A stretch of DNA of 64,000 bases from Herbidospora daliensis. Its GTDB lineage: Bacteria; Actinomycetota; Actinomycetes; Streptosporangiales; Streptosporangiaceae. The notes below the pieces were generated by a model. The model saw only the letters and a program-made list of their open reading frames with translations. It was not told the origin of the DNA and ran no database searches. The stretch spans positions 861,691-925,690 of the forward strand of contig NZ_BBXF01000001.1 of NCBI RefSeq assembly GCF_001570585.1, in the 5' to 3' direction. Every line of letters begins with the position of its first letter. Position 1 is the first letter of the stretch. Below, piece by piece: positions 40,502 through 45,164 of the stretch. A program made the position numbers and the translations under genes.

Positions 40502-40744
40502 TCAGTCCGGGCGGGCGGCGCGAACGTCGAGGGCGTACCTGATACGGACGGAACGATATCGCTGACCCTCGGTGACATTTTCGGGCAGATTCTCCCGGTT
40601 GGTGCCCGAAGCGCCTTGGTCCTCGCCATGGAACTCGACGGTGTGCTCGGGCGCGACCCTGACGTCGAGGTCGTCGGCCTCGACGTCGGCGGCGACCACG
40701 ATGTCGGCCCTGGCGAGCTCCTCGTCGGAGGGGCGTCCGCTCAC
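40502..40744 (-). CDS. Small acidic protein, last gene of the repeat-protein operon
   Basis: 80 residues, strongly acidic in the first half (SGRPSDEELARADIVVAADVEADDLDV) and more basic at the end (RYRSVRIRYALDVRAARPD). No known domain, signal or membrane segment was recognised. The central part reads VAPEHTVEFHGEDQGASG. The GTG start overlaps the stop codon of the upstream 990-residue protein (GTGA), so translation is coupled; this, more than the sequence, supports it as a real gene. Confidence 0.6.
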   Translation of the reverse strand: MSGRPSDEELARADIVVAADVEADDLDVRVAPEHTVEFHGEDQGASGTNRENLPENVTEGQRYRSVRIRYALDVRAARPD

Positions 40745-43713
40745 GGTGGCCTCCCGAGTTTGCCGAGGCGCCGCATACCGGCGAGCAAGGCGGCGTGGCG
40801 GAGCTCCTTCAGGGCGCCGCGTAGTGTCTGGCCGGCCCGGTCGGGGCGTTCGCGTCGCCAGTGGTCGGCTTTCTGCTGGGCGTGGTCTTCGGGCTTCGGC
40901 TTTCCGGGCTCATGCGATGGCTTGCCGGTCTTCGGCTCCCCTTCCGGTTCCCGAGCCGAGCTCTCCGGGGCTTGACCCTCTTCCTCCGGTATACCGGCTT
41001 GGCCTGCGGTCACCGGAGCCTCGCTTTCGTGCTCCGACGCCTCGGCTTCGGTGTCATCGTGCGGCTTCGCGGTCCGGTCTTGGCCTTCTGACCTCCCCGT
41101 TCCGCGATCACCTACGGCCTTCTCGGCTTCGCGATCATCTGGTGACTCGCCCTCATCTTGTGGGCCCTCAGTAGTCACCTGACCCGACGGCTCTTCGGAG
41201 CCACCATCACCAGTTGGTTCCTCGACAGGGCGATCGCCCCGAAACTCATCGGAATCGCCCTCGCCCTGCTGTTCCCCGGTATCACCCTCACCTCTCGGCT
41301 CGGTTAGTCCTTCGTTTGGCGGTTGGCCGGTCTGGCCCTCGCCTTGAAGATTCCCGGCACCCCCTTGTGGCCTCTGCGCCTGGCTTGCCCCCTCGGATTC
41401 CACCGCCAGGCCAGCGCCCGGTGAATCCCCTGCCTGAACGTCGCCCTTCGGCTCCTCCGACTGACTTGCTCCCTCGAGCTCTTCCGCAAGGCCAACGCCC
41501 TGCGATCCCTCTGCCTGACGGTCGCCTTGCAGCTCCTCCGCCTGGGTTTCGCCCTGTAGCTCCTCCGCCTGGGTTTCGCCCTGTAGCTGCTCTGGTTGGG
41601 TCTCACCCTTGGGCTGATCGAAGCGGCCCTCGGTCTGAGCTTCCTCGGCGTCGTGCTCGTCGGTCAGTTCTTCCGTTGGGCCCTCATCTGGCGTCTTGTC
41701 AGCCTGGTTTCCTGGTCGTGGCGTCTCATCCACGCCTTCTGCTCCTGGCTGATCCGTCTGGCCTCCGCCTTGCCGCCCCTCAGCTCCGCCATCTCCTTTC
41801 GGCGTCGCAGGTCGGCCTTCTGCGCCTGAATCCTCCGCCTGGCCGCGGCTTTTGGGCTCCTCGGTGCGGCTCTCTTCTGCCGAGTGCTCAAGTCGGCCTT
41901 CCGCACCCGGCTCGTCGGCATGGGACACGCTTTTCGACGTCTCGCCGGGGCCTTCTTCCGTCTCGTCCTCTGCCCCGGTGCTCCCCCACTGGCCGCCGGT
42001 CTCGGGCTCGCCGGCACGGCTACCCTCTGCCGACTCCTCCGCATGACCTTCCGAGGCGGGCCGCTGGTCGCCGCCCGCTTGTTCCTCGGCGCGACTGTCC
42101 TCTACCTGGTCTTCCGGACCCGGACTCTCACCTTCTTGTTCGTCGCCGCGGCCGTCCTCTGCTTTGCCTTCCACGCCGGACCGCTGGTCGCCTTCATCCT
42201 CCGCGCGACCTCCTGTCGGCTCCGCTGCCCGCTCATCATGTGAGCTCTTGGCACCGGTTTCCGGGCGTTCGGTCTGGCCTTCCCCTGTCGTTTCCCCGGA
42301 CCGATTCCCCTCTGGCGACCGGCCTGCTTCGGCCTCCTGCCGAGTCTCATCGCGTTCGCCGTCGCCACTGGCCGACGGCTTTCGCTCGCTCTGCTCGCCA
42401 CGGCCGGAGCTCGGCGCGGTCACGCGCCTCACCGGCGGCCGCCGGGGAACGCTCTCTTTCTCAGCGCTCTTCTCTCGGCCAGTCTGGGCACCGGCAGCAG
42501 GCCGCTGTTCTTCGACCACAGTGCCGGTGAGCACGTCCCTCTCGTCGCCGCCATCGGCAGGCTGGCCAGCTTGGTCCGTCTCGGCCGCCTGTTCAGCTTC
42601 ACCAGGTCCGGCGTCATGCGCCTGATCAGTTTCGGCACCTTCATCGAGACGGTCGGCGTCGTTTGAAGCCTCGCTTCTAAGTGAGTCGCCACGCTCGGCG
42701 TCTTCACCGGCCTGACCCGCCCTTTCGCCGACGTGACCGGCAGTGGCCGCAGCCCCGGTGCTCTCCCCCACCTGCGTGGCGGCCCGGTTCGTCTCATCGG
42801 TCGCCTTCCCGGCAGGCTCGTCGGGTTCGTCTCTTGCCTGGCCCGCTCCTGCGCCGACGGTCTCACCCGTCTTGCCGGCTCCCGCACCGACTGTCTCGGC
42901 CGCATTCCCGGCCTCTGCGCCGACGTCACTGATCGCTCCGCCGACATCGCCAACTGCGTGACCCGTTCGCGAGCCCACCTCGCTCATCGCGTCGGTCGCG
43001 CCGGAACCAACGTCGCGATCTGCGCCCGAACCCACGTCGCCGACCGCTTCGCTCGCGCCAGTCCCCACGTCATGAACCGTTTCCCGTGCTCCGGAGCCCA
43101 CGTCGCTCACCGCGCGACCTGCGCCCGAACCCACATCGCCCACCGCACGACCCGCGCCCGAACCCACATCGCCCACCGCGCAACCCGCGCCCGAACCCAC
43201 GTCACTCACCGCACGACCCGCGCCCGAACCCACGTCACTCACCGCACGACCCGCGCCCGAACCCACGTCGCTGACCGCCTCGCCCGCTCCGGCTCCCACG
43301 TCGCGGACCGCGTCCCGTGCTCCCGAGCCCACGTCGCTGACGGCGCTGCCTGCTCCCTTGCCCAGTTCGCCGACCGCCTGGCCGGCGCCTCCGCCGATCG
43401 ATTCGGTCGCGTTGCCCAGGCCCCGGGTCAGGTTCTCCAGGATCTGTGGGTTGTGGTCCAGCGTCTGCAGAACATCGCCGACGATCTTGGCGACGTTGTC
43501 GAGCCGGACCTTGAGCATGGCCTGCGCCTGGACTCCCTTGATCCCCAGGTCCACCTCGCCCAGGCTCACGTCGGCTCCGACGTTGAGTTTCAGCAGGTCG
43601 AGGACCTCGGCGCTGACGCTGACGCGGGCTTTGAGGTCGGCGACCCGGAGGGTGATCTCGTCGACGCTGAGGTTCGGTACGTCGAGGAAGACGTCGGGGT
43701 CCTCGTCAGCCAC
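40741..43713 (-). CDS. Large repeat-rich protein: conserved N-terminal domain, 11-residue repeats, 9-residue repeats, acidic disordered region
   Basis: 990 residues. Residues 1-100 form a conserved-looking domain (PNLSVDEITLRVADLKARVSV...GEVDLGIKGVQAQAMLKVRL...LDHNPQILENL). Residues ~110-290 are an 11-residue repeat, consensus GAGRAVSDVGS, at least twelve units. The next ~580 residues are Glu/Gly/Gln/Ser-rich and include a 9-residue repeat (GETQAEELQ type, ~703-783). The last ~45 residues are basic (HWRRERPDRAGQTLRGALKELRHAALL). Eleven-residue repeats can make amphipathic helices on membranes or hydrophobic surfaces, as in LEA or lipid-coat proteins. The DNA is visibly less G+C rich than its neighbours. 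It overlaps the upstream SRPBCC gene by eight bases. Function not recognised. Confidence 0.78.
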   Translation of the reverse strand: MADEDPDVFLDVPNLSVDEITLRVADLKARVSVSAEVLDLLKLNVGADVSLGEVDLGIKGVQAQAMLKVRLDNVAKIVGDVLQTLDHNPQILENLTRGLGNATESIGGGAGQAVGELGKGAGSAVSDVGSGARDAVRDVGAGAGEAVSDVGSGAGRAVSDVGSGAGRAVSDVGSGAGCAVGDVGSGAGRAVGDVGSGAGRAVSDVGSGARETVHDVGTGASEAVGDVGSGADRDVGSGATDAMSEVGSRTGHAVGDVGGAISDVGAEAGNAAETVGAGAGKTGETVGAGAGQARDEPDEPAGKATDETNRAATQVGESTGAAATAGHVGERAGQAGEDAERGDSLRSEASNDADRLDEGAETDQAHDAGPGEAEQAAETDQAGQPADGGDERDVLTGTVVEEQRPAAGAQTGREKSAEKESVPRRPPVRRVTAPSSGRGEQSERKPSASGDGERDETRQEAEAGRSPEGNRSGETTGEGQTERPETGAKSSHDERAAEPTGGRAEDEGDQRSGVEGKAEDGRGDEQEGESPGPEDQVEDSRAEEQAGGDQRPASEGHAEESAEGSRAGEPETGGQWGSTGAEDETEEGPGETSKSVSHADEPGAEGRLEHSAEESRTEEPKSRGQAEDSGAEGRPATPKGDGGAEGRQGGGQTDQPGAEGVDETPRPGNQADKTPDEGPTEELTDEHDAEEAQTEGRFDQPKGETQPEQLQGETQAEELQGETQAEELQGDRQAEGSQGVGLAEELEGASQSEEPKGDVQAGDSPGAGLAVESEGASQAQRPQGGAGNLQGEGQTGQPPNEGLTEPRGEGDTGEQQGEGDSDEFRGDRPVEEPTGDGGSEEPSGQVTTEGPQDEGESPDDREAEKAVGDRGTGRSEGQDRTAKPHDDTEAEASEHESEAPVTAGQAGIPEEEGQAPESSAREPEGEPKTGKPSHEPGKPKPEDHAQQKADHWRRERPDRAGQTLRGALKELRHAALLAGMRRLGKLGRPP
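41365..41607 (-). repeat. 27-bp coding tandem repeat (nine units, 9 residues each)
   Basis: Nine consecutive units translate to variants of GETQAEELQ. Units 41554-41580 and 41527-41553 are nearly identical at DNA level; outer units are more diverged (GASQSEEPK, GAGLAVESE). The gradient suggests recent slippage in the centre. Confidence 0.8.
42844..43386 (-). repeat. 33-bp coding tandem repeat (11 residues each)
   Basis: Units of 33 bp encode GAGRAVSDVGS and variants. The core, about 43084-43281, is nearly identical between units at DNA level (GCCCGAACCCAC(A/G)TC on the plus strand). Flanking units have diverged (GARETVHDVGT, GATDAMSEVGS) and one has lost residues (GADRDVGS). Confidence 0.85.
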
Positions 43714-44731
43714 GTGCGCTCACCTGGCCCTCGGGGACTCTCTCCTCGTGGTCCTCCGGCTCCTCCGGTTCCTCTGATTCTTCCGGCTCCGCTGATTCTT
43801 CTCCCTCCTTCGGCGCCTCGGGTTCCTCTCCCGAACCGGGCGGGGGCGCCTCGGGGGCCTCGGTCGCCTGCTCCTTCTTCGGCTGCTCCTCGTCGGTCGG
43901 CGGTTGTGAGGTGACCTCGCCGTCGTGGATCTCGCCGCGCCAGCCCTGTACGTCGTCGGCGTGCAGGAGGGTCTGGTTCATCACCTGGCGGCGGAAGTGC
44001 TTCAGCTCCAGCCGGGCGCGGCGGCCCTGGGCGCGCCACAGGTTGCCGATGCGTTCGAACAGGCCTTGCGGGTGGTATTCCAGCACGACCAGGACCCGGG
44101 TCAGGTTCGGCGCCAGGCCGCTGAAGGTGACGGCGCCGTCGACGTGGCCCTTGGCTCCGTGGGAGCGCCAGACGATGTGGTCGTCGGGCACCTGGTCGAT
44201 GATGTCGGCCTGCCACGTGCGGTGGGACCAGAAGATCTGGGCCTTCCACGTCAGTTTGACGTCTTCGTCCTGGCTGACGCGTTCGACCTTCTTCATGAAC
44301 GACGGGAACTCCTCGAACTGCGTCCACTGGTTGTAGACGACTTCGAGGGGCGCGCCGATGTCGATCGACTCGACGATGTTGGTGACCTTCCGGTTGCCCT
44401 TGCCCTTGCCGCCCTTGCCGGTGAAGGCCTTGAACAGTTCGGTGACGCCCTTCACGCCGTGGCCGAGGCGCTTGAAGAAGCCTTCCTTCTTCTCCTCGCC
44501 GCCGCCTCCGTGCTCCTTCTTCTCGGCGCCGAAGCCGAGGTCGCTGAGACCGCTCTTCTCGCCGGTGGCGTATTCGGTGAGGCGGTCGGTGAGGTCGCCG
44601 ACCTTGCCCTTGATCTTGCCGGTCACCTTGCCGGTCAGTTTGGACGCGCCGCGCTTGCCGGCCGCGCCGATGATGCCGCCGACCTCTCTGCCGAGCCGGC
44701 CGAGGGGTGACGCCGTCTTCGTGTCCGTCAT
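43706..44731 (-). CDS. SRPBCC (START-like) protein with basic N-terminus and acidic tail
   Basis: 341 residues. The first ~115 are Gly/Lys-rich (GKVTGKIKGKVGDLTDRL, EKKEHGGGGEEKKEG, FTGKGGKGKGNRK). Residues ~118-235 are a SRPBCC/polyketide-cyclase-like domain: IVESIDIGAPLEVVYNQWTQ, FEEFPSFMKKVERV, FWSHRTWQADIIDQVPDDHIVWRS, FSGLAPNLTRVLVVLEYHPQG. The last ~70 are Pro/Glu-rich (PEESEEPEEPEDHEERVPEG). The fold binds lipids or other hydrophobic ligands. The ATG overlaps the stop of the upstream gene (ATGA) and the end overlaps the giant repeat protein. Proteins of this shape occur in Streptomyces gas-vesicle clusters (GvpZ-like, from memory), but no GvpA is present here. Confidence 0.82.
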   Translation of the reverse strand: MTDTKTASPLGRLGREVGGIIGAAGKRGASKLTGKVTGKIKGKVGDLTDRLTEYATGEKSGLSDLGFGAEKKEHGGGGEEKKEGFFKRLGHGVKGVTELFKAFTGKGGKGKGNRKVTNIVESIDIGAPLEVVYNQWTQFEEFPSFMKKVERVSQDEDVKLTWKAQIFWSHRTWQADIIDQVPDDHIVWRSHGAKGHVDGAVTFSGLAPNLTRVLVVLEYHPQGLFERIGNLWRAQGRRARLELKHFRRQVMNQTLLHADDVQGWRGEIHDGEVTSQPPTDEEQPKKEQATEAPEAPPPGSGEEPEAPKEGEESAEPEESEEPEEPEDHEERVPEGQVSARG

Positions 44732-45099
44732 GAGTCCTCCCCATTGGAGTTCTGCTCCGTGGAGGTCTTCTCTGCGGTCTTCGTCTTGGTGCCGAGCGGG
44801 CTGCGCAGCCGCTCCGCCTTGTCGTGGATGCGGTCGCTGAGCTGGTTGATCGGGCCGGTGGTCGCCGCGGTGGCGGCGGCGCGGCCGGCCTCCATGAGGT
44901 CGGTCTGCAGCTTTCCGGCGAGCTCTTCGAGTTCGGGCGAGCCGAGGCTCTTGAGGCCCTTGCCCAGCAGGCTCTTGGGCCGGAGCGCTCCGGCGAGGCC
45001 CCCGACGGCGACGGCGGTCGCGAGCGCGAGTTTGTGGTTGCGCCCGAAGTAGTAACCGAGGGCGATGCCCACCGCGAGTTTGGCCTGACTTGGCTTCAT
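44728..45099 (-). CDS. Small membrane-associated protein, first gene of the repeat-protein operon
   Basis: 123 residues. MKPSQAKLAVGIALGYYFGRN is followed by a hydrophobic stretch (LALATAVAVGGLAGAL) that may span or line the membrane. A helical amphipathic part follows (SPELEELAGKLQTDLMEAGRAAATAAT) and then a hydrophilic Lys/Thr/Glu tail. No family is certain; it recalls the small membrane protein next to the SRPBCC gene in Streptomyces gas-vesicle clusters (GvpY-like, inference). AAGGGGG precedes the ATG. It is the first gene of four translationally coupled genes. Confidence 0.72.
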   Translation of the reverse strand: MKPSQAKLAVGIALGYYFGRNHKLALATAVAVGGLAGALRPKSLLGKGLKSLGSPELEELAGKLQTDLMEAGRAAATAATTGPINQLSDRIHDKAERLRSPLGTKTKTAEKTSTEQNSNGEDS

Positions 45100-45164
45100 C
45101 ACTGTCCCCCTTCCGGAATTCCCCTCCCCGGAAAGCGGACAGTGCATCTCAAGAGCAGGCCAAA

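Follow-up and report, generated by a model that had tools for sequence, protein, structure and literature searches.

A GvpY-GvpZ-like gene pair joined to two further genes in Herbidospora daliensis: a tentative gas-vesicle-derived module apart from the shell

What does a pair of gas-vesicle (gvp) accessory genes do at a locus around which no gvp gene is found? This question is raised by four overlapping genes, here called A, B, C and D, of the soil actinomycete Herbidospora daliensis (genome 8.5 Mb). They lie in a stretch of 64,000 nucleotides (the window), bases 861691-925690 of contig 1. The products of A and B resemble GvpY and GvpZ of actinomycete gvp clusters (Y and Z in the following), C encodes a large repeat protein and D a small acidic one. 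A similar set is kept in several relatives in which no shell gene was found. This suggests that Y and Z also assist some other particle or membrane structure. The locus is tentatively read, with a little less than even confidence, as a gas-vesicle-derived module that is able to work apart from the gas-vesicle shell.

The identity of A and B was approached from gene B. Against Pfam it matched the SRPBCC-type family Polyketide_cyc (PF03364) with an E-value of 7e-18 and 65.5 bits (gathering score 23.4), and 18 of its last 41 residues are aspartic or glutamic acid, as expected from a preliminary description of the DNA, which had named an SRPBCC protein with an acidic tail. The nearest PDB sequences were 3ggn and 2kcz, DR_A0006 (E 4e-6). 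In 60 relatives searched, long relatives of gene B were 79-94% identical in six other Herbidospora genomes and 41-59% identical elsewhere; the Z proteins embedded in gvp clusters are likewise 41-59% identical. A gene B match lay at most about 1.5 kb from a match to PF00741, the GvpA-type shell protein, in 14 of these relatives (G008, G009, G010, G011, G013, G015, G019, G026, G028, G030, G034, G039, G040 and G057). The Y-Z pair with adjoining gvp genes was present in all eight clusters fetched (L067-L071 and L073-L075, with a gene-by-gene reading for six). L070 has the order O-A-F-G-Y-Z-J-L-S-K, and models of Y and Z matched genes A and B as well as the L070 pair between G and J. This order agrees with that of Streptomyces coelicolor as given in Table 2 of PMC5839063, which places gvpY and gvpZ between G and J. 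Judged by cluster position and homology, from which the names are taken, A-B is the actinomycete GvpY-GvpZ pair, a likeness that the preliminary description had suggested.

The pair has the same order as SCO6503-SCO6504 and SCO0653-SCO0654 of S. coelicolor, with which it was equated by cluster position and between-cluster homology; unlike these, A-B lies outside a gvp cluster and is followed by C-D. All 12 aligned Z copies, whether gvp-embedded or linked to C, share the SRPBCC core and a W-R-A-Q-G-R-R motif, and the acidic tail is common to them. The product of gene A starts with a short hydrophobic segment that contains a basic turn, and the Y N-termini are alike between loci. On three plasmid loci of Rhodococcus and Kitasatospora (L219-L221) an annotated SRPBCC gene adjoins annotated gvp genes; the Rhodococcus gene preceding Z (L219 5924-6478) gave no match with the Y model. 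The likeness to GvpY and GvpZ of Serratia ATCC 39006 is one of name, and shared names are no evidence of homology. The function of the Serratia proteins is given as unknown in the part of PMC4982088 that treats them, and according to the relevant section of PMC10344784 their deletion lowered or abolished the gas-vesicle signal in Escherichia coli. In the passages of the literature available to us that name Y and Z, these always appear as gvp genes, partly the Serratia ones. The genome of H. daliensis contains two more short SRPBCC genes (L013 7697-8260 and L014 6337-6879), which share 35% and 28% identity, respectively, with a part of gene B, and alongside which no gvp gene was recognised.

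The evidence that Y-Z can be kept apart from a shell comes from genomes without gvp. C was present and PF00741 gave no match in 13 genomes (G018, G031, G461, G468, G519, G555, G077, G139, G228, G320, G370, G378 and G400), and PF06386 was absent in all seven of these that were tested. G562, which has C and a full-length Z together with broken gvpF pieces and a sub-cut-off PF00741 match, was excluded. Eight of the 13 contained a full-length Z, beside C in seven (G018, G461, G468, G519, G555, G320 and G400) and on a contig other than that of C in G077. A full-length Z was absent in G031, G139, G228, G370 and G378, and D stood beside C in all of these five except G031. As a comparison, 32 gvp-less genomes without C were scored for Z, 14 Streptosporangiaceae with P0002 and 18 Streptomyces with alignment A5; a few of them are less than 90% complete. 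None contained a full-length Z. Outside this set remained eight Streptomyces without PF00741, G480 (sub-cut-off PF00741, no C) and those genomes of the class sample that have neither gvp nor C. The difference between 8/13 and 0/32 gave a Fisher p of 6e-6, or of 4e-5 when only C-linked Z was counted, relatedness being uncorrected in both. In the gvp-less sample a full-length Z therefore persists only where the genome carries C, that is, Y-Z outlives the shell only there (again uncorrected for relatedness). In two further cases (L211 of G129 and contig 11 of G562) the gvpF matches were split in two, while the neighbouring Z was open, which looks as though decay reaches the shell genes first; the same picture could result from a sequencing fault.

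H. daliensis itself is not gvp-less. Three PF00741 and two PF06386 matches were found on contig 2, and the cluster there (L012) was read as A, F, G, O, J, L, S and K (GvpO by PF05800; A, F, G, J, K and L by tblastn). The Y and Z models gave no match in this cluster, and no gvp match was obtained in the seven Herbidospora stretches around Y-Z-C-D. A full-length Z occurs once per genome in the seven Herbidospora, beside C, the remaining matches being short SRPBCC genes. The free-standing system proposed in the preliminary description is supported by the seven genomes with Y-Z next to C and no PF00741 match; in the genome in which it was proposed, the shell protein is encoded on another contig in a cluster that does not contain Y-Z, and the pair may act there in trans.

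How regularly C and Y-Z go together was examined with the conserved N-terminal domain of C, which was detected in 12/60 relatives, 21/394 genomes of the class and 28/150 Streptomyces (one through a 34-residue match only). It is encoded in 192 stretches of the species collection, the best 80 of which were fetched; these lean to close relatives. Of 110 non-redundant loci outside Herbidospora, 20 had a Y-Z pair near C, where chance would give 0.4% per locus (for two Z loci in 8 Mb and a span of 16 kb, relatedness ignored). Y-Z preceded C on the same strand in six, followed it on the same strand in four, diverged from it in seven and converged on it in three, which amounts to seven patterns once the presence of D is counted. 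The other 90 loci were without the pair in the fetched stretch, some stretches being incomplete, so that homologues of the four genes are neighbours in part of the genomes only. Among the 20, a gvp cluster was also present once, beside C in the Streptomyces locus L125; Y-Z thus lies within gvp clusters of relatives, once with C adjoining. Both outcomes that the preliminary description took to speak against its reading were therefore seen in part. In G349 gvp, Y-Z and C-D occupy three separate contigs.

A tree of 52 Z proteins, 26 of them C-linked, placed those of Herbidospora, G018 and one metagenome-assembled genome among the gvp Z proteins of Streptosporangiaceae, with a weak joint branch (91/66). 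A Streptomycetaceae group of 16 C-linked proteins and one gvp-embedded Z (L206) had a support of 100/100, and the C-linked Z of G400 fell separately. The C-linked label requires at least four changes on the tree (shuffled mean 17.7). Judged from this tree, the pairing of C with Y-Z is one that arose or was kept several times. The gvp cluster L206 lies about 28 kb from C on the same contig of G494; therefore the ancestors of some C-linked sets may have been gvp clusters near C whose shell was lost.

Which property of C could make it a partner of Y-Z? Gene C had been described as a 990-residue repeat protein, and a period of 11 residues was indeed found. In the H. daliensis protein the autocorrelation at lag 11 was 0.58, and of the angles tried the hydrophobic moment was maximal at 98-100 degrees. 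In a survey of 103 distinct C tails from outside Herbidospora (60-120 residues each) the top period was 11 or 22 in 92, lag 11 scored above every one of 300 shuffles in 90, and in 102 the peak of the hydrophobic moment was at 100 degrees. The commonest residue per position gives the consensus A-V-E-D-V-G-R-G-A-G-E, counted on repeats that match a template at four or more of seven places and hence partly circular; the values for period and moment are free of this circularity. When worked out by hand, A1, V2, V5 and A9 share one face of an 11/3 helix. The repeat has the periodicity of an amphipathic helix, from which helix formation and surface binding are predicted. Apolipoproteins, phasins, synucleins and late embryogenesis abundant (LEA) proteins are surface coats with 11-residue repeats, and GvpC has repeats of 33 residues. 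C shares the 11-residue period and one-sided hydrophobicity with the former, but differs from them in having three glycines per consensus repeat, no Pfam match over the cut-off and an undescribed N-terminal domain attached. Eight repeat stretches were compared with Pfam. Three matched Apolipoprotein (best 4e-6, 27.1 of 90 bits), two Phasin_2 (best E 0.002, 18.5 of 24.9 bits) and five CsmC (best 5e-5, 23.7 of 26.3 bits), all below cut-off, as was Senescence; no LEA match was listed for the eight. In Herbidospora the repeat is followed by a long acidic stretch and then by a basic C-terminus, whereas C of other genera is shorter beyond the domain, with no more than 402 residues there.

The N-terminal domain of C had no Pfam, NCBIfam or PDB sequence match above cut-off. 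Two weak leads remained below it: a RIP_P131-like one (29/50 members, best E 0.003) and PhaM (5/50 members, best E 0.055). Gene D is the small acidic protein of the preliminary description (isoelectric point 4.6). A hidden Markov model (HMM) of A2 detected it downstream of C, and on the strand of C, in 64/80 C loci, several stretches being incomplete; in the 110 non-redundant loci D lay downstream of C in 83. AlphaFold2 gave a three-stranded model of D with a predicted local distance difference test score (pLDDT) of 81, which had no Foldseek match in the PDB at E <= 0.001. Neither C nor D had a match over the cut-off in Pfam, NCBIfam, PADLOC or PDB sequence searches, and the PADLOC anti-phage models returned no family for the four proteins (C entered as N-terminal domain only). 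By these comparisons C-D is a distinct conserved pair, separate from Y-Z and without a known family in the libraries searched. The C domain (56% identity) also occurs on plasmids of Deinococcus deserti (L216 8833-9720) and D. taeanensis (L217 8710-9711). The D. taeanensis protein starts with an apparent signal peptide, and in both plasmids a second apparently secreted gene converges on the C-domain gene; the Y, Z and D models gave no match in these two stretches. On a Streptomyces plasmid a C-D pair adjoins parA-parB (L218 7857-9206).

The organization of the locus is summarized in Table 1. The overlaps of A/B, B/C and C/D are 4, 8 and 4 bases and are identical in 7/7 Herbidospora loci, so that the description of four overlapping reading frames was upheld. 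The flanks are the same in the six other Herbidospora, with aroB, aroQ and an SGNH hydrolase upstream and a MOSC protein downstream (names read from the proteins). The median pairwise ratio of nonsynonymous to synonymous substitution rates (dN/dS; 21 pairs) was lowest in the C domain (0.10), followed by D (0.25), Z (0.37) and Y (0.42). It was below 1 for every pair in all four genes, with a maximum of 0.93 (Y). These values speak against chance reading frames or a relic, and the four are real genes. Directly upstream of gene A, a hairpin covers its likely ribosome-binding site and ends at its start codon. The hairpin has a folding z-score of -3.3 (2/200 shuffles fold equally well), is kept with small changes in the seven Herbidospora and is present in a single copy in the genome with up to three mismatches allowed. 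It is a possible control point for entry into the operon. A scan for promoters and terminators gave signals no more than in shuffles.

Table 1. Features of the Y-Z-C-D locus, in window coordinates.
Feature	Position	Strand	Basis
Leader hairpin, 17-nt arms, 88% complementary	45100..45144	minus	Inverted repeat; folding compared with shuffles
Gene A, GvpY-like, 123 aa, ATG start	44728..45099	minus	Open reading frame (ORF); homologues precede Z in gvp clusters of relatives
Gene B, GvpZ-like SRPBCC protein, 341 aa, ATG start, acidic tail	43706..44731	minus	PF03364
Gene C, 990 aa, GTG start	40741..43713	minus	ORF; N-terminal domain, 11-residue repeats, acidic stretch, basic C-terminus
Gene C, conserved N-terminal domain, about 105 residues	43390..43713	minus	Alignments A1 and A3
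Gene C, 11-residue repeat region	42814..43419	minus	Autocorrelation, hydrophobic moment
Gene C, acidic, hydrophobic-poor stretch	40879..42813	minus	Composition in 50-residue blocks
Gene C, basic C-terminal segment, 11 lysines/arginines in last 40 residues	40744..40866	minus	Matched in six other Herbidospora loci
Gene D, 80 aa, GTG start, acidic, predicted three-stranded beta	40502..40744	minus	HMM, AlphaFold2

The notion of a module that can work without the shell has to be weighed against other explanations. Since the gvp cluster of H. daliensis is without Y-Z, a role of the pair in trans is possible: Y-Z may have left the cluster and still serve it, C-D being passengers or further accessories. 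That each Herbidospora genome has one full-length Z fits this, as do the Streptomyces G531 and G552, which have gvp and their only full-length Z beside C, the adjoining C and gvp cluster of L125, and G494, in which C lies near a gvp cluster whose Z sits in the C-linked clade. The seven PF00741-less genomes that keep Y-Z beside C, six of which (not G320) also lack PF06386, argue against it, and gvp-bearing Streptomyces (G431, G455 and G475) occur without a full-length Z; we consider such a displacement somewhat unlikely. It is quite unlikely that C covers polyhydroxyalkanoate or triacylglycerol inclusions in the manner of a phasin or perilipin, Z being the lipid carrier. The 11-residue amphipathic periodicity, the Phasin_2, Apolipoprotein and Senescence matches and an SRPBCC partner of the lipid transport type are what such a coat would show, but these matches are below cut-off, no inclusion-synthesis gene was recognised by eye in the 30 largest neighbour clusters of 74 C loci, and Y-Z is also found in gvp clusters. 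A remnant of a larger gvp cluster that lost its shell genes and has no present role is disfavoured and very improbable: the two-piece gvpF matches of G129 and G562 (which a sequencing fault could imitate) are in line with it, whereas the dN/dS values, the exact overlaps kept in seven genomes, the unchanged flanking genes and the repeated retention on the Z tree are not.

Several observations weigh against the favoured reading itself. C persists without full-length Z or PF00741 in five genomes, which makes Z dispensable for C, and Y-Z pairs occur without C or gvp in the fetched stretch (L225 6673-8507 and L224 6593-8270). In Streptomyces, where PF00741 exceeded the cut-off in 118/150 genomes, an association of C with gvp was tested and rejected, gvp being present in 23/28 genomes with C and 95/122 without (p 0.80). 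Neighbour clustering of 74 C loci yielded D (24), SDR (13), ABC (12), Z (12), Y (10) and one other family (10); the generic families are as frequent around C as Z and Y are, although they are scattered over the whole stretch, more widely than Z and Y. The Fisher values reported above ignore the relatedness of the genomes, and in Herbidospora the pair may act on gvp in trans as set out above. The C domain gave a poor AlphaFold2 model (pLDDT 54), which leaves its fold unpredicted. Three of the eight repeat stretches had no Pfam match at all, and five, including that of the window, matched neither Apolipoprotein nor Phasin; the sub-cut-off matches name coats of hydrophobic bodies, but may result from biased composition. 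For gene A, which had been described as encoding a membrane protein, the highest Kyte-Doolittle mean over 19 residues is 1.18, only mildly hydrophobic and low for a transmembrane helix, for which a threshold of about 1.6 is usual, and a clear transmembrane protein is not supported. Any binding of a membrane by C or gene A is a prediction from sequence, and the surface, membrane or vesicle association proposed for the products in the preliminary description has the same standing.

If the module does act apart from the shell, C most likely would coat a membrane or a hydrophobic particle, with Y and Z as its adaptors. The 11-residue repeats of C would form an amphipathic helix when they meet a hydrophobic surface, which may be the cell membrane, a storage inclusion or a particle, and C would coat or scaffold this surface through its N-terminal domain. 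Y would be located at this hydrophobic surface too, and the SRPBCC cavity and arginine-rich helix of Z may bind a lipid-like ligand or C; both adaptors could work with either the gas-vesicle shell or the C scaffold. D, as a small partner, may cap or chaperone C. The product ratio would be held constant by the overlapping starts, and entry into the operon would be gated by the leader hairpin that covers the first ribosome-binding site. A further-reaching version, in which Y-Z-C-D is a shell-less counterpart of the gas vesicle and C replaces the GvpA shell as hydrophobic scaffold for the Y-Z adaptors, seems doubtful to us, slightly more so than the displacement discussed above.

C and D represent two protein families absent, over cut-off, from Pfam, NCBIfam, PADLOC and the PDB, and the C domain reaches as far as Deinococcus. 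Should the shell-less counterpart exist, actinomycetes would have a particle or membrane microdomain of a new kind. Many actinomycetes of soil have gvp genes. The gvp-less genomes with Y-Z and C, among them the near-finished G468 and G519 without a PF00741 match, offer small gene sets that can be tested. Survival of Y-Z without the shell and with a new partner, C, would separate the accessory function from the shell.

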